Virus record (IMG/VR): IMGVR_UViG_3300025770_000103
Span: 1-20,474 of that record
DNA: 20,474 nucleotides
Source of the DNA: a virus
Reading direction: 5' to 3' (one strand)
Under the pieces are notes generated by a model. It searched no databases, had not been told where the DNA came from, and saw nothing but the letters and a program-made list of their open reading frames with translations. Below are positions 1,756 through 17,355 of this stretch, in pieces. A program made the position numbers and the translations under genes. Numbering within the stretch: position 1 is the first letter of the stretch; every line of letters starts with the position of its first letter.

Positions 1756-1763
1756 TATAAATA
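1756..1763 (+). promoter_or_regulatory. T4-type late promoter core TATAAATA
   Basis: A perfect match to the T4 late-promoter -10-like element lies immediately after the stop of the gp8-like gene, in a 34-bp gap that is almost entirely A/T. It ends 26 bases before the ATG at 1790, with a weak purine-rich AAGAGA between. In T4 this element is read by RNA polymerase carrying the gp55 sigma factor. An 8-mer of this composition is expected once or twice per strand by chance in a window this AT-rich, so the intergenic position is the main support. Confidence 0.55.
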
Positions 1764-9140: not shown

Positions 9141-9746
9141 ATGTCATATTTAGGAACTAGAACTGGTGGTAGAGGAGTATTTATATCTTCGGATTTTAAC
9201 TCCGTATCATTTATCGGAGATGGAGGATCAAGAGTATACCCTTTACCAGAAACAATTATTCAAGATGATGCATCGGTACTTGTTCATATAGATGGGGTTA
9301 AACAGCATACATCCGCATATTCTGTTTCTGGCACTTCATTAACTTTTACGGATGCACCACCAAACACATCCAATATAGAAATTATAATATTTGGTGTAAA
9401 ATCAGCTGATACTGTGATTACATATAATCCGAACTCAATTTCGATTATGGAGCTGGACACTCTTGATGGCGATCCTGGTCAAGTATTAACAACGGATGGT
9501 GCAGGTAATTTAAGTTTCAGTTCTAAATCTACAGAAACTTTGTTTTCTATGGGAGTCACAGTATCAGCAACAGAACTGAATTATGTTGGTGGTATTACTA
9601 GTAATATTAATACTCAACTCCTATCTAAGCAAGACACCTTAGTATCTGCTACTAATATAAAATCGATTAATGGAGATTCTATATTAGGTTCGGGGGATTT
9701 GGCAATAACAGGGTGGTCATATGCAACAACCCTTAAGTTTGCATAA
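9141..9746 (+). CDS. Fibre-base / short tail fibre protein, cassette 1
   Basis: A 201-residue fibre protein. Residues about 24-95 form a beta domain with HIDGVKQHTSAYSVSG, matching INGIKQHGSAYSLES in the gene at 11944. Next comes LDTLDGDPGQVLTTDGAGNL, a shaft motif shared with that gene, then a stalk segment with ATELNYVGGITSNINTQL and NIKSINGDSILGSGDL. The last motif is common in phage fibre shafts and recurs in the gene at 18888. The protein ends soon after it (WSYATTLKFA), so it lacks a large distal domain; the distal part may come from the next genes. It opens the first host-recognition cassette. The first 16 bases of the gene are identical to those of the gene at 11944. Confidence 0.7.
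   Translation: MSYLGTRTGGRGVFISSDFNSVSFIGDGGSRVYPLPETIIQDDASVLVHIDGVKQHTSAYSVSGTSLTFTDAPPNTSNIEIIIFGVKSADTVITYNPNSISIMELDTLDGDPGQVLTTDGAGNLSFSSKSTETLFSMGVTVSATELNYVGGITSNINTQLLSKQDTLVSATNIKSINGDSILGSGDLAITGWSYATTLKFA
9475..9517 (+). repeat. 43-bp dispersed repeat, copy A (pairs with 12281-12323)
   Basis: It encodes the GQVLTTDGAGNLS shaft motif. Copy B at 12281-12323 differs at one position (9497 T, 12303 C). Identity at the nucleotide level inside otherwise diverged genes suggests recombination between fibre genes. Confidence 0.85.
9639..9702 (+). repeat. 64-bp dispersed repeat, copy A (pairs with 19113-19176)
   Basis: 61 of 64 bases match 19113-19176. It encodes the NIKSINGDSILGSGDL stalk motif in two different fibre genes 9.5 kb apart. 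Confidence 0.85.
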
Positions 9747-9767
9747 TATAATTAATAAGGAATACAA

Positions 9768-11039
9768 ATGGCTGACAACGTAAAAGTCTTTACACACATA
9801 GACGCACAAACAACCACAGGTGATATAAGCATAGTGACAACCGATGCTGAAACGCAAGCAGTTGTTAAAGATGTAATATTTAAGGGTAAATCAACTCATT
9901 ACCCAACAGAAATGACATTAAAACTTAATGATATATTATTAGGTGAAACTTATACTTCCGGCCCAGATGAGGAGTTGAATGTAGGTTTAAGTGGAAACCT
10001 AATAATGGATGCGACTTCTATTCTTAAAGTAAGTATACCAACAGTACCACAAGTAGATTATGTTGCTAAATTAGATGCAGTAATATTCAGTGATAATTAT
10101 AACCAAACGCTGAGAGATATAAACCTTACACCAATCGAATCAACTACTCCTTACACAAACACGGATGTTGAATCTCATTTACAAGCGACGGGACAAGGGG
10201 GTACTAATAACCCTGCAAACTGTGCTTTCGCTGTTATTAGAAACTCTGAGGTACAATACTTTAGGTACTGGGAAGGCGACCTATTTAGACATCATGATGG
10301 TGCAGCACCAGCAGAAACTGCAATCACTGTACTTGATGGGAGTGGAAATGCCGTAAGTAGTTATAGTATGTGTACTGATGGCACATTCTTCTATGAGAAA
10401 TCGAGTAGTACAAGTACAGAGATAAGAGTTTATAACGTCTCTGATTATGTCCCACAAACTTCAATCACCACAGATGTTTCCTACTCAGGACAGGCAAGTA
10501 ATCAAGGGTCATATATGCTTACGCATGGTGGTTATATTTATACTAAACATCTTTCTGTAGATACTATTATATACAAGACCAATATCGAAGATGGGACAAC
10601 CACCACAATAAATGTTAATTCTGTAGGTAATTATTCGGGGGGTGCTGTTATAACGAGAGGTTCAGATACTGAATTTTACCTAGTGGAAAAGGGTAGTAAT
10701 GGGTGGTACAAAGTTAATCTAGCTACTGATTTAGTAGTGAATTATGCGGGCAATGGCGGTATGAACGAAACCACAGAGTATGGGAACAATGCGTTTGAAA
10801 TCTCTGGTGGTTATGTTGGTGTTATTGACGGCCTCAATATAGTTGTTATTAATGTAGTAGAAGGAACTTATGCTCGTACCTCTGGTAATGGATCTACAAA
10901 CGGAGGGTACTTTTCTAGCATTAGCAATACCTTTGGATCAAAGAGTGCAGTTGCGGCTTTGTCAATATCAGCGAATTTTGACAGTAGACCGCATGGCTTA
11001 AATTACAGTATATATGCCTCTGGCGTAGAAATTACATAA
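9768..11039 (+). CDS. Putative receptor-binding/fibre protein with propeller-like repeats
   Basis: A 423-residue protein I do not recognise by family. The N-terminal roughly 120 residues (MADNVKVFTHIDAQ, then a beta-rich stretch ending near SILKVSIP) would suit an attachment domain. The rest consists of Tyr-, Ser- and Gly-rich beta segments with repeated tyrosine-strand patterns such as YFRYWEGDLFRHHDG, GGYIYTKHL, TEFYLVEKGSNGWYKVNL and VGVIDGLNIVVINVVEGTY. These resemble blades of a beta-propeller or another repetitive beta fold. It sits between a fibre-base protein and a fibre chaperone and carries a good ribosome site (AATAAGGAATACAA). A distal adhesin role is inferred from position and fold-like texture only. 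Confidence 0.55.
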   Translation: MADNVKVFTHIDAQTTTGDISIVTTDAETQAVVKDVIFKGKSTHYPTEMTLKLNDILLGETYTSGPDEELNVGLSGNLIMDATSILKVSIPTVPQVDYVAKLDAVIFSDNYNQTLRDINLTPIESTTPYTNTDVESHLQATGQGGTNNPANCAFAVIRNSEVQYFRYWEGDLFRHHDGAAPAETAITVLDGSGNAVSSYSMCTDGTFFYEKSSSTSTEIRVYNVSDYVPQTSITTDVSYSGQASNQGSYMLTHGGYIYTKHLSVDTIIYKTNIEDGTTTTINVNSVGNYSGGAVITRGSDTEFYLVEKGSNGWYKVNLATDLVVNYAGNGGMNETTEYGNNAFEISGGYVGVIDGLNIVVINVVEGTYARTSGNGSTNGGYFSSISNTFGSKSAVAALSISANFDSRPHGLNYSIYASGVEIT

Positions 11040-11054
11040 TCGGAGAATAACATA

Positions 11055-11549
11055 ATGTTAGAAAATAAAACATCATCCCCAACAGTAGTAGAATCAACAA
11101 ACATAGTATTTGATTCTGGATGGAAAAGAGTATCAGGAAGGGGTATTAATCTCCCTACAAATCTGTATTCAAATAACACTGAAAGAATGCTCATGTGGTC
11201 TTTCGAGATGATATCTATTCGCAATAGCCCAACTTGGGCTATGTTCCATCCCCAACTTCTTGACCTATCCGCGTCTCTGATTGCTGTGGACACAGATTAC
11301 GCATGGACTGCTAATAAGGGGCCATCCTTTTCTACGATCGGTGCCGATTGGTGGGTGTTGGATAGTGCTTCTGCTGCGATAGGGAAATATAGGTTTTCTT
11401 CGACTACGGGGAATGGAAAATGGAATATGCTGCCGGCGGGGTTTAGTGTCAGAATATATTCTGACAGCAGCTTTCAGTCAAATCACGTTGTAGATTATAA
11501 ATTGACTGTCGTTGAAGCAGATACATCATTACTTGTAAACAGGAATTGA
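11055..11549 (+). CDS. Unrecognised cassette-1 protein, possible fibre tip
   Basis: A 164-residue protein with no family that I recognise. It is rich in Ser, Trp and aromatic residues (FDSGWKRVSGRGINLP, PTWAMFHPQL, GADWWVLDS) and ends with a beta-strand-like VVDYKLTVVE. There are no catalytic motifs, membrane spans or signal peptide. A clear ribosome site (CGGAGAATAAC) precedes the ATG. It lies directly upstream of the assembly chaperone, the usual place for a fibre tip or adhesin, so a receptor-binding or tip role is plausible but not shown. Confidence 0.5.
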   Translation: MLENKTSSPTVVESTNIVFDSGWKRVSGRGINLPTNLYSNNTERMLMWSFEMISIRNSPTWAMFHPQLLDLSASLIAVDTDYAWTANKGPSFSTIGADWWVLDSASAAIGKYRFSSTTGNGKWNMLPAGFSVRIYSDSSFQSNHVVDYKLTVVEADTSLLVNRN

Positions 11550-11550
11550 T

Positions 11551-11934
11551 ATGTATTTATTTATAGGGGAACTAGGGGAAATACTTAAAGGTAGTTATGA
11601 AGAGGTTACAGATATAGAAGTTGCTGATACTTTTTTCCATACCTACCCTTCTTTTTGCTGGAGGGTAGTAGACGGTGTTGTAACTTTAAAAGATGATGCA
11701 GATGATATTCTTGAAGCTCACCACGAAAAGGAAAAATCTACTCGATTACAGTCTTTAGAGGATGAAGCTTTAAAAGTAGTTAGAGCGCAACGAGGCCGAC
11801 TTCTCGCTGAAACCGATCATTATGCCCTACAGGATGTTGACTTGACTGAAGAAATGACTACATACCGTCAAGCACTTAGAGATTTACCGGAGACAGTTGA
11901 TATAAATAACATCATATATCCAGAGAAACCATAG
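11551..11934 (+). CDS. Tail fibre assembly chaperone, cassette 1
   Basis: A 127-residue protein resembling small phage tail/fibre assembly chaperones. It has a variable N-terminal half, a charged helical middle (about residues 55-85) and a C-terminal block with RGRLLAETDHYALQDVDL followed by TTYRQALRDLPETVD. The pattern R-x-x-LL-x-x-TD ... YRQALRDLP is the hallmark of the phage tail assembly chaperone family. Such proteins help fold or trimerise the fibre encoded just upstream and are not usually in the virion. The last 28 codons are identical in DNA to those of the chaperone at 16096, while the N-terminal halves are unrelated. The start follows the previous stop by one base, with AGGA as ribosome site. 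Confidence 0.7.
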   Translation: MYLFIGELGEILKGSYEEVTDIEVADTFFHTYPSFCWRVVDGVVTLKDDADDILEAHHEKEKSTRLQSLEDEALKVVRAQRGRLLAETDHYALQDVDLTEEMTTYRQALRDLPETVDINNIIYPEKP

Positions 11935-11939
11935 AGAGC
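11851..11939 (+). repeat. 89-bp exact direct repeat, left copy (pairs with 16459-16547)
   Basis: Identical over 89 bases to 16459-16547; with one mismatch (11940 A, 16548 G) the match continues through the start codon of the next gene (to 11946/16554). It covers the last 28 codons of the chaperone, its stop, a TATAAATA element and the GAGAG ribosome site. Sequence upstream of the repeat diverges abruptly, so the two copies bracket a 4608-bp unit. Confidence 0.95.
11901..11908 (+). promoter_or_regulatory. T4-type late promoter core TATAAATA, left repeat copy
   Basis: A perfect TATAAATA lies inside the end of the chaperone coding sequence (codons for D-I-N), 35 bases upstream of the ATG at 11944. 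That distance leaves room for a transcript start and the GAGAG ribosome site. It is part of the duplicated 89 bp. A chance match within coding sequence is possible. Confidence 0.45.
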
Positions 11940-11943
11940 AATA

Positions 11944-12417
11944 ATGTCATATTTAGGAAAGGCTGAATTAAAGGCTTCAAAAATTAAAAAGTGGACTGGT
12001 TATGCGACGACTGTGGATGGCGTGTCCTTTGTACCATATAGCAGCACAGGTATGGGTTTCACCCCTTTTAATGAAAATTCAACTTGGGTTACTATCAATG
12101 GTATTAAACAGCACGGATCTGCATATTCATTAGAGTCTACACAATTATCATTTGCTTCGGTAGTATCAACAAATGACGAAATTGAAGTGGTTTGTATATT
12201 TGATGTTGGTGTTCCAACATACGTCGATGTAATAGAAAATACCGTTGATGTTGCGGCACTGGACACTTCTGATGGTACAGCTGGTCAAGTATTAACAACG
12301 GACGGTGCAGGTAATTTAAGTTTTTCATCGGCTGGATTGGGTGATATAGATGGAGGAGATTCGGCGACTGTATATTCAGTCGCAGACATAATAATAGATA
12401 GCGGAGGAGCCACATAA
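11944..12417 (+). CDS. Fibre-base / short tail fibre protein, cassette 2
   Basis: A 157-residue protein related to the product of 9141. Both begin MSYLG, and the domain around INGIKQHGSAYSLES and the shaft motif LDTSDGTAGQVLTTDGAGNL match that protein. The region between residues 6 and 55 and the C-terminus (DIDGGDSATVYSVADIIID) differ. It lacks the NIKSINGDSILGSGDL stalk. It begins immediately after the left 89-bp repeat and ends in a TAATG overlap with the next gene, whose ribosome site (GGAGG) lies in its final codons. The likely role is to connect the second set of adhesins to the particle, as its paralogue would for the first set. Confidence 0.68.
   Translation: MSYLGKAELKASKIKKWTGYATTVDGVSFVPYSSTGMGFTPFNENSTWVTINGIKQHGSAYSLESTQLSFASVVSTNDEIEVVCIFDVGVPTYVDVIENTVDVAALDTSDGTAGQVLTTDGAGNLSFSSAGLGDIDGGDSATVYSVADIIIDSGGAT
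12281..12323 (+). repeat. 43-bp dispersed repeat, copy B (pairs with 9475-9517)
   Basis: Second copy of the GQVLTTDGAGNLS-coding segment, one mismatch from copy A, at an offset of 2806 bp. Confidence 0.85.
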
Positions 12418-13076
12418 TGGCCACAATATTAAGACAACGTAGAGATACAGCAGCAAATTGGTCATCAGCAAATCCTGTAATACCAGACGGACAATTGTGT
12501 TTCGATACAACAAATAATACTTTTAGAGTTGGTGACGGAACTACAAATTACTCGAGCCTATCCATACAATCTGGACTACCCGGAGAGATGAGCGGTGCTA
12601 ATAATCTATCAGAAATAGTTACTCCTGCAACTGCTCGAACCAATTTAGGGTTGACAATAGGTACTGATGTTCAAGCCTTTGATGTAAATACAACAAAAAA
12701 TGATGTTGCGAATGCCTTTACTGCAGCTAATACCTTTACCGAAACGACATTTATTGAAACATCAGAAACAGTACACGAACTTGTGGATCTTGATATTGAT
12801 CCTGCACATGGTAGTAAGCAGTATAAAACCCTAACGGCAGCTCCAGTTTTTACTTCATCTATTACAGATGGTCAATCAGTACGTCTACGCATTGTCGGAG
12901 GTGATACATATTCTGTTACATGGCCAGATCCAGCAGTTACAGCTAATAACATTACATCTGTAAAATGGGTTACATCTGCAGGTAATGTACGGCCAACTGC
13001 TACTGCAGATGATGTATTTGTCATAGAAATGGAAGATTCTACTTTATACATTTATTATCTCGGTAGTGCTGTATGA
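12417..13076 (+). CDS. Tail fibre protein with Mtd-N-like N-terminal domain
   Basis: A 219-residue fibre protein. Residues 1-50 (ILRQRRDTAANWSSANPVIP, then GQLCFDTTNNTFRVGDGTTN) match the pattern of the major-tropism-determinant N-terminal domain found at the base of many phage fibres (RRDTAANW ... G-x-L-x-F-x-T ... VGDGTT). A shaft follows with ARTNLGLTIGTDVQAFD and DVANAFTAANTF, both common fibre motifs. The C-terminal beta domain (about residues 130-219: VRLRIVGGDTYSVTWPDP, KWVTSAGNVRPT, LYIYYLGSAV) is a small tip domain seen in other tail proteins. The start overlaps the previous stop (TAATG) after GGAGG; the stop overlaps the next start (ATGA). Confidence 0.72.
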   Translation: MATILRQRRDTAANWSSANPVIPDGQLCFDTTNNTFRVGDGTTNYSSLSIQSGLPGEMSGANNLSEIVTPATARTNLGLTIGTDVQAFDVNTTKNDVANAFTAANTFTETTFIETSETVHELVDLDIDPAHGSKQYKTLTAAPVFTSSITDGQSVRLRIVGGDTYSVTWPDPAVTANNITSVKWVTSAGNVRPTATADDVFVIEMEDSTLYIYYLGSAV

Positions 13077-16072
13077 GTATGAAGGAGTTAATGGCTGCAG
13101 GTAACTCCTTATCTTTAGGTGAACCTGACCCAGAGGGTGTTAGCTTTGATGGGACGAATGATTATTTGAGTCGGAGTTCTGACCTGTCAGGTAACACGGA
13201 TTCTAAGACGTTTACTTTTAGTGCATGGGTTTATCTTGGTCACACTGGTAGTGGGTCATCAAATAGTCAATACGGAAAACTATACTTCAATAATAACGGT
13301 ACATACGGTCTTATAATAGAAACAACGTCTTTAGGGGAAATAAGAGTTAGACTACCGCTTGTTGCGGGAAATGACATTACTTTTGAAACCCCAGATACAC
13401 AGTATGGGTTTTTCTTTGGGTGGACACACTTTCTCATTTCGTTTGATATAGAGAACATGTCATACAGGTCTATGTATATCAATGACAGACTGGTGTCCAC
13501 TATCTATGGTGCTGGTTGGACTACAACTTCATCAGCTAATATTGATTTTACAGCGTCTGTTCATTATGTGGCATACTCCCCAACTACTAATCCGTCGGGT
13601 GGGGGTGCGGCTGACGGTAGATTACACGGTAGACTAGCACACACTTTCCTAGACTACACATATCGCGACCTATCTATAGAAGCTAACCGCAGATTGTTCA
13701 TCACTGCTGACGGTAAGCCAGCTACTGGTCAGAGTAGTGTTGATAAGTATCTTAGTGAGAAGTTTGACGCCAACCAAGAGGGAGCAAGCACAAGAGGAAT
13801 TCAATTTAATAGTACGGGCAGTAAGATGTATTTACTATCTTATGGTAATGGTACTGTATTCCAATACTCCCTATCGATAGCGTATGACATAACCTCAGCT
13901 AGTTATGATGGAGTCTCCAAACAGTTAACTGAAGCGATTCAGCCCAACAGCTTGACGCTGAATGATGATGGAACCAAGTTCTTTGTTTGTGATGACTCCT
14001 CCAACTCCGTAAAAGAATACACGATGTCCTCCGCATACGATTTGAGCACAGCAGCGTATTCTACGACGTTTAGCGTCACATCCCAAACCACAAACCCAAC
14101 GGCGCTAGAGTTCAACGCAAGTGGGAGTAAGATGTTTGTCGCGGATCGGACAACAGGGACGGTGTACGTGTATGACTTATCAACTGATTTCTTAGTATCG
14201 TCAGCCTCCTATAATTCAGTCAATAAGGTGTTGAATGTCACTAATCTTTATGGGATGCTCTTTAGTCCTGATGGGACAACATTAGTTATTAGTAGATCTG
14301 ACAACGATACTATTGCCTCTTACTCTTTAAGTGTAGCTTACGATGTTACAACTTGCACCCTAGGAAGTAGTTTCTTTGTTGGTGATTTGGATTCGACGCC
14401 CACTTCTATAGAATGGAATTCAGACGGTTCAGTAATAATTCTTGCTGGCTATGCCACAGCTTCAGTCTATGCCCTCAACCTATCCACCCCCTATGACATA
14501 AGCACAGCCTCGTATGGTGAGGCAGAAGGTACACCCCAAGCTCCCATTATCTACCTACCCATGAAAGATGCAGCTACAGCAGGGGAAAATTTAGGATCGG
14601 GTGGTTCTCAAAATAACTTCTCGGTGAATGGAATACTGGATACGGCTGGTCGTGGACCGAATCAATGGAACTGTTCTGCATCGAAGTTTGATGGGGCGAA
14701 TGATTATTTGCAAATTAGCGGCAACCTTGGAGCGTCTGATGGTAAACTAATTACATATTCTGGTATATTAAGGGCTGATGGTACTACAGGGGGTAATGTT
14801 GGTAATACTATACGTGGCTTTAAAAGTACTGGAAGCGCAAATGTAATTACTGGTCACACCATATCTTTTGGTAGAATATCATGTGCCGTACAGCTTACCG
14901 ATGAAACTGGAGTTAACTTCACATACGATTACAATAATAATACATCACTACCCTACCACGGAAGATACTGGCATGTCTCATACTCTATAGATGTTTCAGA
15001 CAATAATAAGAGAACAGTTATTATAAACGGTGTAAATGTGACAGCCGAAGTTACTTGGACATCATACTCTAATTTATTAGATATACATTTCTCATCGATT
15101 GTTGCATATAGTTATTCAGCAAATAATATCACACCGACAGCATGGGACGAGCAAACTATAGGTGAAGTGTATCTTGATAATACCTACACCGACCTATCCA
15201 CAGACAACCCATTCTGGGATGCAGATGCTAACCGACCTAAACCAGTTCGACAAGTCATCTCAGAAACAGGAACAACACCACTGATTGCAATGCCACTACG
15301 GGCTGATGATGCTGGGAATAATCTAGGTAGCGGTGGTGATTTTATTGTGTACTCTGGCCCATTCACAGGGGCGAGGGGTGGGTCTGAGTTTTGGGCTAGG
15401 AGTGTAAAGGGTAATGGTTCAAGTTCTTATCTAAACGGGAGCACAGGGACAAGTAACAGCAGCGTACATACTCTTGCTTTCGCCATTAATCGAGTTGGCA
15501 TAACACAGTCTAAGCCGATAATTAACACAGGTGGAGTCAATTTTACAGGCAGCGCTAGTGGTGCTTATAATTTATTCTTAGACAACCAGAACCTAAAATT
15601 ACACGCAAATAACGGATCTTTAAATTGGGAGACCACCGACAGTAGTGTTGTAGGCGATCAATGGAACATAATACTGTTATCTTACAATGGTATCTCATAT
15701 GATTTATATATCAACGGCGTTGTCCCTTCTGTGTATACGACATCAAGTGGGACTCCACTATTCCCGTTTAACAATCTAGACATACTTTATAACGGGGGTA
15801 CTGATGTTTACGCTGACAGCTCTATAGGTTTTTTATGGGCGGATGACAGCTACATAGACTTCTCCCAAGAAAGTAACCGTAACCTATTCGTAGACCAACT
15901 TGGATACCCTAAAGACTTAACCCCAGCAATCGAAGCTGGCACTATCGCAGACCCACTCATTTACATGAAATTCGATGACACATCTAGCTTAGGCGCTAAC
16001 TCAGGCACAGGTGTAGATTTCTCCGTCAACGGTACAGTAATCGCTGGTGCTGATGTAGGCCCTAACGCATAA
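13073..16072 (+). CDS. Large LamG/beta-propeller adhesin
   Basis: A 999-residue likely receptor-binding protein. Three modules resemble LamG/concanavalin-like lectin domains: residues about 17-225 (VSFDGTNDYLSRS ... YRDLSIEANRRLFITADGKP), 490-720 (KFDGANDYLQISG ... TYTDLSTDNPFWDADANRP) and 736-955 (KGNGSSSYLNGS ... SYIDFSQESNRNLFVDQLGY). Between the first two, about residues 224-480, are five repeats of roughly 50 residues of the form NxxGSKMYL ... YSLSIAYDITSASY, resembling beta-propeller blades. The C-terminus (PLIYMKFDDTSSLG ... DFSVNG) is the beginning of a fourth module that stops short. Binding to host surface glycans is inferred from the lectin fold. The start overlaps the previous stop (ATGA); in-frame ATGs at 13079 and 13091 (the latter just after AAGGAG) are alternatives. 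Part of the gene is clearly more GC-rich than the baseplate genes. Confidence 0.72.
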   Translation: MSMKELMAAGNSLSLGEPDPEGVSFDGTNDYLSRSSDLSGNTDSKTFTFSAWVYLGHTGSGSSNSQYGKLYFNNNGTYGLIIETTSLGEIRVRLPLVAGNDITFETPDTQYGFFFGWTHFLISFDIENMSYRSMYINDRLVSTIYGAGWTTTSSANIDFTASVHYVAYSPTTNPSGGGAADGRLHGRLAHTFLDYTYRDLSIEANRRLFITADGKPATGQSSVDKYLSEKFDANQEGASTRGIQFNSTGSKMYLLSYGNGTVFQYSLSIAYDITSASYDGVSKQLTEAIQPNSLTLNDDGTKFFVCDDSSNSVKEYTMSSAYDLSTAAYSTTFSVTSQTTNPTALEFNASGSKMFVADRTTGTVYVYDLSTDFLVSSASYNSVNKVLNVTNLYGMLFSPDGTTLVISRSDNDTIASYSLSVAYDVTTCTLGSSFFVGDLDSTPTSIEWNSDGSVIILAGYATASVYALNLSTPYDISTASYGEAEGTPQAPIIYLPMKDAATAGENLGSGGSQNNFSVNGILDTAGRGPNQWNCSASKFDGANDYLQISGNLGASDGKLITYSGILRADGTTGGNVGNTIRGFKSTGSANVITGHTISFGRISCAVQLTDETGVNFTYDYNNNTSLPYHGRYWHVSYSIDVSDNNKRTVIINGVNVTAEVTWTSYSNLLDIHFSSIVAYSYSANNITPTAWDEQTIGEVYLDNTYTDLSTDNPFWDADANRPKPVRQVISETGTTPLIAMPLRADDAGNNLGSGGDFIVYSGPFTGARGGSEFWARSVKGNGSSSYLNGSTGTSNSSVHTLAFAINRVGITQSKPIINTGGVNFTGSASGAYNLFLDNQNLKLHANNGSLNWETTDSSVVGDQWNIILLSYNGISYDLYINGVVPSVYTTSSGTPLFPFNNLDILYNGGTDVYADSSIGFLWADDSYIDFSQESNRNLFVDQLGYPKDLTPAIEAGTIADPLIYMKFDDTSSLGANSGTGVDFSVNGTVIAGADVGPNA
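13145..13168 (+). repeat. 24-bp intragenic repeat (pairs with 14687-14710)
   Basis: The codons for FDG-x-NDYL at the start of the first and second LamG-like modules match in 23 of 24 bases, supporting duplication or shared origin of the modules. Confidence 0.7.
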
Positions 16073-16095
16073 TAGCAGACAAAGGAGAAATAACA

Positions 16096-16542
16096 ATGCT
16101 ATATCTAAAAGCAATCAATAACAAAGTAGAGAAATATCCATATACACTTGGTCAATTGAGAAAAGACAATGTAAACACAACATTTCCAAAGCAACCCAAT
16201 CTAGAGACATTAAGTGCATTCAATATGTACCCAGTGACAGAAGTAACACCAACGCTTGCAGATGGTGAGAAGTTAGTTAAAGTCTGGACACCAGAACTGG
16301 TATCTGGTCACTGGATTCTGCCACACCAAGCAGTCGCCAAGACAGAAGAAGATTTAGCTACGGAGTCGGAAGTCGCTTGGGATAATCTCAGAGAGCAACG
16401 AAATAAGCTACTCGGGGAAACAGATTTCCACGCATTATCTGATGTAAATATGCCGGAGGAAATGACTACATACCGTCAAGCACTTAGAGATTTACCGGAG
16501 ACAGTTGATATAAATAACATCATATATCCAGAGAAACCATAG
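16096..16542 (+). CDS. Tail fibre assembly chaperone, cassette 2
   Basis: A 148-residue protein of the phage tail assembly chaperone type. The N-terminus (YPYTLGQLRKDNVNTTFPKQ, residues about 15-34) is a pattern seen in other phage fibre-associated small proteins. A middle segment with VWTPELVSGHWILPHQAV is followed by a charged helix. The C-terminal block REQRNKLLGETDFHALSD plus TTYRQALRDLPETVD matches the cassette-1 chaperone. The last 28 codons are identical in DNA to those of that gene, but the N-terminal part differs completely, as expected if the N-terminus is specific for its own fibre. A strong ribosome site (AAAGGAG at 16081-16087) precedes the ATG by 8 bases. It presumably folds or assembles the adhesin at 13073. 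Confidence 0.72.
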   Translation: MLYLKAINNKVEKYPYTLGQLRKDNVNTTFPKQPNLETLSAFNMYPVTEVTPTLADGEKLVKVWTPELVSGHWILPHQAVAKTEEDLATESEVAWDNLREQRNKLLGETDFHALSDVNMPEEMTTYRQALRDLPETVDINNIIYPEKP

Positions 16543-16547
16543 AGAGC
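16459..16547 (+). repeat. 89-bp exact direct repeat, right copy (pairs with 11851-11939)
   Basis: Right copy of the perfect direct repeat. It ends just before the gp13 start; the ATG and flanking bases also match the left copy apart from 16548. Confidence 0.95.
16509..16516 (+). promoter_or_regulatory. T4-type late promoter core TATAAATA, right repeat copy
   Basis: The same TATAAATA, 35 bases upstream of the gp13 ATG, at the end of the fibre cassettes and the start of the neck block. A late promoter here would give gp13-gp14-gp15 expression independent of the fibre genes. Confidence 0.5.
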
Positions 16548-16551
16548 GATA

Positions 16552-17355
16552 ATGGCATTAACAACAAAATCAGAATTATCTGAATATTGTCTTCGAAGAC
16601 TCGGTAAACCAGTTGTCGATATTAATGTCGATATTGATCAAATCTCAGACAGAATAGATGATGCGCTTGAATATTTCAATCAATTTCATTATGATGGGAT
16701 TGAAAGATTATATCTATCTCACACAATAACTCAGGCCGACCTTGATCGTGCGGTGGGTGTTAATTCTGAAACGGCAACAGAAGATTCAGTTTCATCGGTT
16801 TGGACGAATCAAAATAATTGGATCGCCATACCAGATTCGGTTGTATCAATTGTTAATGTATATCATCCATCCACAGCATTCGGATCTAATTGGTATAATC
16901 AAGCAGCAATGATACGGTCGGGTTTGATTGATTTAAACCCTGCGGCAGATCTTGTTTCCACTTCAATGGCTCGGGAAAAATTAGACATGATTGATACTAT
17001 GTTCAATACGCAAGTGTCAATTAGATTTAATCATTTAAGTTCTAAACTGTACTTCGATAATACTTGGTCGGAAACTTTTAAAGTTGATGATACTATACTT
17101 ATTGAATGCTATAGAAAAACCGATCCCTCTGTAGCAGTAAGACTTTATAATGATATGTTCCTCAAGAGATATGCTACAGAACTCATCAAAAGACAATGGG
17201 GTCAAAACCTCCAGAAATTCAAAGGCATCGCGATGATTGGTGGTGTTGAAATTGATGCGGATACTATATATACTCAGGCACAAGAGGAAATTGAAAAACT
17301 AGAAGAAAAAATAATATCTACATATCAAGCACCGCTTGATTTTATGGTGGGGTAG
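16552..17355 (+). CDS. gp13: Neck protein, T4 gp13-like
   Basis: Head-completion/neck protein homologous to T4 gp13, which with gp14 forms the connector between the DNA-filled head and the tail. The N-terminus SEYCLRRLGKPVVDINVD (residues about 9-26), followed by DQISDRIDDALEYFNQFHYD, is the conserved start of gp13 in marine T4-like phages. The length is 267 residues against 309 in T4. A long C-terminal helix (QAQEEIEKLEEKIIST) is visible. It lies immediately upstream of gp14- and gp15-like genes, as in the T4 order 13-14-15. A GAGAG ribosome site and the right TATAAATA element precede it, both within the duplicated 89 bp and its one-mismatch extension. Confidence 0.85.
   Translation: MALTTKSELSEYCLRRLGKPVVDINVDIDQISDRIDDALEYFNQFHYDGIERLYLSHTITQADLDRAVGVNSETATEDSVSSVWTNQNNWIAIPDSVVSIVNVYHPSTAFGSNWYNQAAMIRSGLIDLNPAADLVSTSMAREKLDMIDTMFNTQVSIRFNHLSSKLYFDNTWSETFKVDDTILIECYRKTDPSVAVRLYNDMFLKRYATELIKRQWGQNLQKFKGIAMIGGVEIDADTIYTQAQEEIEKLEEKIISTYQAPLDFMVG

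Follow-up and report, generated by a model that had tools for sequence, protein, structure and literature searches.

An 89-nt direct repeat carrying a putative late promoter marks the cassette boundaries of a tail-fibre island in a marine T4-like phage

The window analysed here is an entire IMG/VR record, a metagenomic fragment of 20,474 bp from a marine T4-like phage. In it, a full tail-fibre gene set is bracketed by two identical 89-nt stretches. The relevant features are as follows:

1756..1763, plus strand: additional TATAAATA, 34 nt before the ATG at 1790; the same sequence occurs in the L009 contig
9141..11549, plus strand: body of cassette 1 (open reading frames for fibre base 1, an adhesin-like protein and a small protein)
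11551..11934, plus strand: chap1, tail-fibre assembly chaperone of 127 aa, ends cassette 1 (PF16778, E 4e-13; phrog_4912)
11851..11939, plus strand: repeat copy 1, the 84-nt end of chap1 plus 5 nt of leader; identical to copy 2
11901..11908, plus strand: putative late promoter motif TATAAATA within chap1, 43 nt before the fb2 ATG
11944..12417, plus strand: fb2, fibre base protein (MSYLGKAELK...), with homologues in L009, L015 and L070
12417..13076, plus strand: Mtd-N-like fibre protein (PF18454, E 4e-9), with homologues in L015 and L012
13073..16072, plus strand: LamG-type adhesin of 999 aa with a beta-propeller-like stretch (PF13385, Laminin_G_3, E 3e-6; PF10282)
16096..16542, plus strand: chap2, tail-fibre assembly chaperone of 148 aa, ends cassette 2 (PF16778, E 2e-9)
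16459..16547, plus strand: repeat copy 2, the 84-nt end of chap2 plus 5 nt of leader; identical to copy 1
16509..16516, plus strand: putative late promoter motif TATAAATA within chap2, 43 nt before the gp13 ATG
16552..17355, plus strand: gp13, neck or head-tail adaptor, right flank of the fibre island (phrog_211, E 1.5e-39)

Family searches agree with the gene calls of an initial annotation made from the sequence alone, returning Mtd_N, Laminin_G_3, Phage_tail_APC twice and a gp13-type adaptor. Both chaperones carry the C-terminal Phage_tail_APC domain of PF16778 and are placed after a fibre or adhesin gene. The body of chap1 is nearest to the chaperone that abuts gp13 in the related contig L070, while chap2 shares 75-90% amino acid identity with its counterparts in L015, L003, L011, L012, L051 and L052. 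For the product of 12417-13076, only the N-terminal domain of Mtd was matched, and no reverse transcriptase was found among the family matches of the window. Within the body of cassette 1, weak family matches were obtained for fibre base 1 only, and the relatives have no counterpart of the cassette 1 body apart from segments of the fibre base. The homologue search with fb2 returned mostly distant fibres, matched through a common linker. Homology between fibre genes also exists within the genome: 9639-9702 and 19113-19176 are 95% identical over 64 nt, encoding a linker (TNIKSINGDSILGSGDL) common to fibre base 1 and to the fibre gene that follows gp3, and 9453-9517 and 12259-12323, in fibre bases 1 and 2, are 88% identical over 65 nt (GQVLTTDGAGNLSF). 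The LamG adhesin gene (13073-16072) is a mosaic with respect to L003, L012 and L015, in which patches of DNA with ~76-91% identity alternate with unalignable stretches; this pattern suggests domain shuffling within the adhesin.

Exact repeat comparison of the contig showed that 11851-11939 and 16459-16547 are identical at 89/89 nt. The 90th position is an A/G mismatch, followed in both copies by ATAATG, which includes the start codon of the next gene. The repeat thus comprises the last 28 codons (84 nt) of chap1 or chap2 and 5 nt of leader. As the next exact direct repeat by length in the contig of 20,474 bp measures only 28 bp, a chance origin is excluded. Removal of one unit between the copies would delete exactly 4608 bp and leave an intact chap1 directly before gp13, with all reading frames kept. 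On each of these points, namely the exact repeat, its extension with one mismatch to the next start codon and the geometry of the deletion, the initial annotation was right. Its further statement that the sequence upstream of the copies diverges at once is accurate for the DNA, where chap1 and chap2 are ~56% identical, but not for the proteins, which are homologues (PF16778, E 4e-13 and 2e-9). The fold predicted for the repeat was no better than that of shuffled sequences (z 0.10), giving no sign of a stem-loop or terminator, and an Rfam search returned zero matches. No near DNA match to the window was found in cultured phages.

What the repeat contains escaped the initial annotation: it is likely the late promoter of the gene that follows, together with its leader. 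An exact TATAAATA is present in both copies and is read in frame within the chaperone tail DINNIIYPEKP, such that the final 11-12 codons (DINNIIYPEKP-stop) double as TATAAATA and a large part of the leader of the following gene. T4 and KVP40 use TATAAATA as their late promoter, and cyanophage S-PM2 uses NATAAATA (PMC2984593). Across the window and three related contigs (four in all), 24 of the 40 occurrences of TATAAATA are followed by a gene start within 70 nt, compared with ~1.2 expected. A relative, G006 (gp13 91% aa identity), encodes the T4-type late sigma factor gp55 (phrog_234, E 5.5e-51) as well as gp46, and in the nearest isolate, Melnitz, TATAAATA is found ahead of structural genes. 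Based on its position, its enrichment and the machinery represented by gp55, TATAAATA in the repeat is likely a late promoter of the following gene, and we infer that transcription starts from it.

The boundary box (TATAAATAAYAYMATATATCCAGARAAACYATAGAGA) is conserved as DNA. When five chaperone lineages were compared pairwise, codons specifying the same amino acid differed in 54% of cases upstream of the repeat and in 52% in the 5' part of the repeat, but in only 3% in the core. The corresponding counts are 82/151 upstream and 4/120 in the core (Fisher 8e-25, a value that is merely indicative because the lineage pairs are not independent). The core, of 36 nt, is 94-100% identical across all nine chaperones compared. 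Core and leader also occur as non-coding DNA before gp13 in L004, L005, L006, L007, L008, L010 and L015, where 40-44/46 nt of the element are identical (L004-L008, L010 and the last cassette of L015); in L013 and L014 the element before gp13 is shortened, with TATAAATA kept. These non-coding elements resemble scars left by lost chaperone genes whose promoter was retained. Chaperone relatives without TATAAATA were found in L051, in the temperate L052 and as pre-terminase copies (L009 at 13514, and L014), and terminate in NPVYPEKP or NPVFPDKP. The temperate contig L052 (7770-10450) has an integrase-like gene and carries a LamG adhesin (47% aa) with a chaperone similar to chap2 (75% aa); this type of cassette thus crosses phage groups, with the late promoter motif absent.

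The flanks of the island are well conserved among relatives. To its left, the window and L070 share 92% identity as far as ~9125, and to its right gp13-gp14-gp3 continue at 80-93% in several relatives. The island of L070 holds other genes, with a single fused fibre, and gp13 is directly preceded by a chap1-like chaperone; L070 has the chap1 type in common with the window but not the rest of cassette 1, and its inner cassette begins without a box. Of the three fibre sets in L072, which lies on the 52.5-kb contig of L009, two end in a chaperone and box; the two boxes are 77% identical over the last 84 nt, and the longest exact match between them is 27 bp. The same contig encodes a 692-aa fibre protein with a matrixin-type metalloprotease domain (L009 3490-5568; PF00413, E 1e-13). 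In L015, the order is fb2, Mtd-like protein, LamG, chap2 (90% aa), another fibre set, box and gp13, which places the cassette type of the window one position farther from gp13; the second fibre set has no recognised chaperone of the PF16778/chap type. L003 and L012 have LamG, chap2 and gp13, L005 and its kin have a single giant fibre protein, and in the more distant L043 a fibre set is absent at the island position. Cassettes that differ in number and type therefore end at the same boundary (L070, L072, L015, L003 and L005), and the repeat is supported as a cassette boundary. It should be noted that in L005-type phages the break lies just upstream of the promoter, so that the box is not the sole breakpoint. 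Among the relatives examined, none was found with the same cassette 1 and no cassette 2.

The left edge of the repeat coincides with a change in ancestry. Over the 42 nt just upstream, chap1 is 76% identical to the L070 chaperone and 57% to chap2. Across the 48 nt with which the repeat opens, by contrast, chap1 matches chap2 and L003 completely (100%) and L070 at 77%; DNA ancestry therefore changes at ~11851. The L003 chaperone shows an equal step, from 69% identity to chap2 before the repeat to 100% inside it. Since the body of chap1 is L070-like and its final 84 nt are the same as in chap2 and L003, recombination at the chaperone/leader boundary is well supported. Further, the leader of copy 1 (AGAGCAATAATG) resembles gp13 junctions (L003, L015) and not the fibre junction of L009 (AGAATTATAATG), which fits either duplication of a chaperone/gp13 junction or conversion reaching the start codon. 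The proposal of the initial annotation that cassette 2 was gained by duplication of this junction is thus plausible, given the gp13-type leader and the chap1-like chaperone that sits on gp13 in L070. UvsX was not found on the related contigs searched, all of which are fragmentary.

We consider it quite probable that the repeat is a promoter-bearing boundary module of a fibre cassette island whose parts are joined by general recombination. Each cassette would end in a chaperone gene that also supplies the late promoter and much of the leader for whatever gene follows. General homologous recombination at the box could then link any cassette to any follower, because each product would retain chaperone, promoter, leader and reading frames. 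Cassette 2 may have been placed beside chap1 by such an event, recently enough for the boxes to remain identical.

A different history, somewhat unlikely in our estimation, is gene conversion between long-standing tandem chaperones, with recent copying of one 3' end onto the other, in which case the repeat would date the conversion and not the gain of the cassette. Strong divergence of chap1 and chap2 upstream with identity over 89 nt is what conversion would produce, and the equally sharp step in L003, with the same 84 nt, is consistent with it. So is the two-box architecture of L072, whose older boxes imply that cassette stacking is not new in the group. However, the gp13-junction type of the copy 1 leader and the chap1-like chaperone on gp13 in L070 are explained directly by junction duplication, although a conversion tract extending to the start codon would likewise account for the leader.

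It is improbable that the arrangement is an assembly chimera in which reads of chap1-box-gp13 and chapX-box-cassette 2 were merged through the common 89 bp. The contig is a metagenomic fragment, an exact repeat of 89 bp is within reach of typical assembler k-mers, and L003, another phage, shares both the 26-nt probe and the 84 nt. However, stacked cassettes are also present in L072, an independent contig of 52.5 kb whose boxes, with a longest match of 27 bp, are too different to be confused, and in L015 the cassette type of the window precedes another fibre cassette. Moreover, relatives in culture, with closed genomes, show exchange of fibre blocks.

These relatives are the Methylophilales phages of the Melnitz group, the nearest isolates to the window (gp3-like protein, 56% aa). 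Melnitz-3 and Melnitz differ by two replaced fibre blocks whose flanks are 99.8-100% identical. The end of the first replaced block coincides exactly with that of a chaperone gene (L171 8870/8871; identity resumes in L172 at 9553) and the second starts ~26 nt past the stop codon of the next chaperone. As both phages are cultured and their genomes are deposited as circular, exchange of fibre blocks at chaperone ends does not depend on metagenome assemblies. The likeness to the window thus lies in fibre blocks exchanged between near-identical genomes, one block ending at the chaperone end (PMC9004378). The difference is that the chaperone tails of Melnitz are without an embedded TATAAATA, and the block boundaries still fall at chaperone ends. 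In L172 (Melnitz), two chaperones (10401-10709 and 22200-22583) have closely similar 3' ends of ~60 nt and differ in the remainder.

That the two copies are identical solely through constraint on the chaperone tail and promoter is very improbable. Conservation of the core in nine chaperones is in keeping with constraint, but the 48 nt that precede the core show 62-77% identity among diverged relatives and 100% among chap1, chap2 and L003, and synonymous differences between chap1 and chap2 number 0/15 in the 5' part against 6/14 just upstream. Pure constraint is rejected as the cause of identity in the 5' half of the repeat and holds for the core only.

The initial annotation had also raised a reversible host-range switch, with phase-variation-like excision and reinsertion of the cassette. 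The geometry permits clean excision with frames kept, but such a dedicated switch is highly doubtful, since family searches detected no recombinase among the genes of the window, the repeats are direct and the repeat search of the window found no inverted repeats flanking the cassette, and deletion by general recombination is neither targeted nor reversible by itself; a site-specific switch is rejected on these grounds. Further, the one published host-range test found on such near-isogenic relatives gave identical host ranges, on the panel used, for Melnitz variants that differ in their fibre blocks (PMC9004378), which cautions against reading each fibre swap as a host-range switch.

Modular shuffling in T4-type phages is known; the variant described here has promoter-bearing homology at the joint. 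T4-type phages have mobile regulatory cassettes known as PeSLs (Arbiol 2010; Comeau 2014, as described in PMC4503421), and the element described here is likewise repeated between shuffled modules. However, PeSLs, as presented there, consist of early promoters and stem-loops, whereas the present motif is of the late type, has no predicted stem-loop and lies inside coding sequence, and the modules are tail-fibre cassettes. With a late-type motif and no significant fold in place of an early promoter and stem-loop terminator, the repeat differs from PeSLs in make-up. In marine T4-like pelagimyophages, the host recognition cluster is similarly a hypervariable fibre island in the structural region, situated just before the neck genes and ahead of gp14, whereas the island here is ahead of gp13; in the passages of PMC7029224 that describe the cluster, the authors report failed late-promoter prediction and no boundary element was found. 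T-even phages swap tail-fibre modules between conserved motifs (Tetart 1998, cited in PMC3797505). The likeness is that recombination at conserved segments exchanges adhesin modules. In T-even phages the motifs reportedly lie within genes of the distal tail-fibre locus, whereas the joint here consists of a chaperone tail and promoter, and whole cassettes are stacked.

As a more speculative extension, which we put forward with considerable reserve, the chaperone tail may have been selected into a dual-coded joint of protein end, late promoter and leader, which would allow cassettes to be stacked, lost or exchanged while all products stay transcribed and in frame. Natural populations would then hold standing variation in cassette number, providing a general route to variation in host recognition that needs no recombinase. 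The results also advise caution with exact repeats in fibre islands, which may represent conserved regulatory DNA and recent recombination and not switches. The box could serve as a DNA tag for locating cassette junctions in metagenomes, and the modularity of phage fibres would be turned into a testable rule, with boundaries at one DNA element of ~45 bp. A joint that combines the chaperone end with the promoter and leader of the next gene would provide a concrete molecular reason for clean one-point cassette swaps in this group of phages, and would explain how cassettes can be swapped or stacked without breakage.
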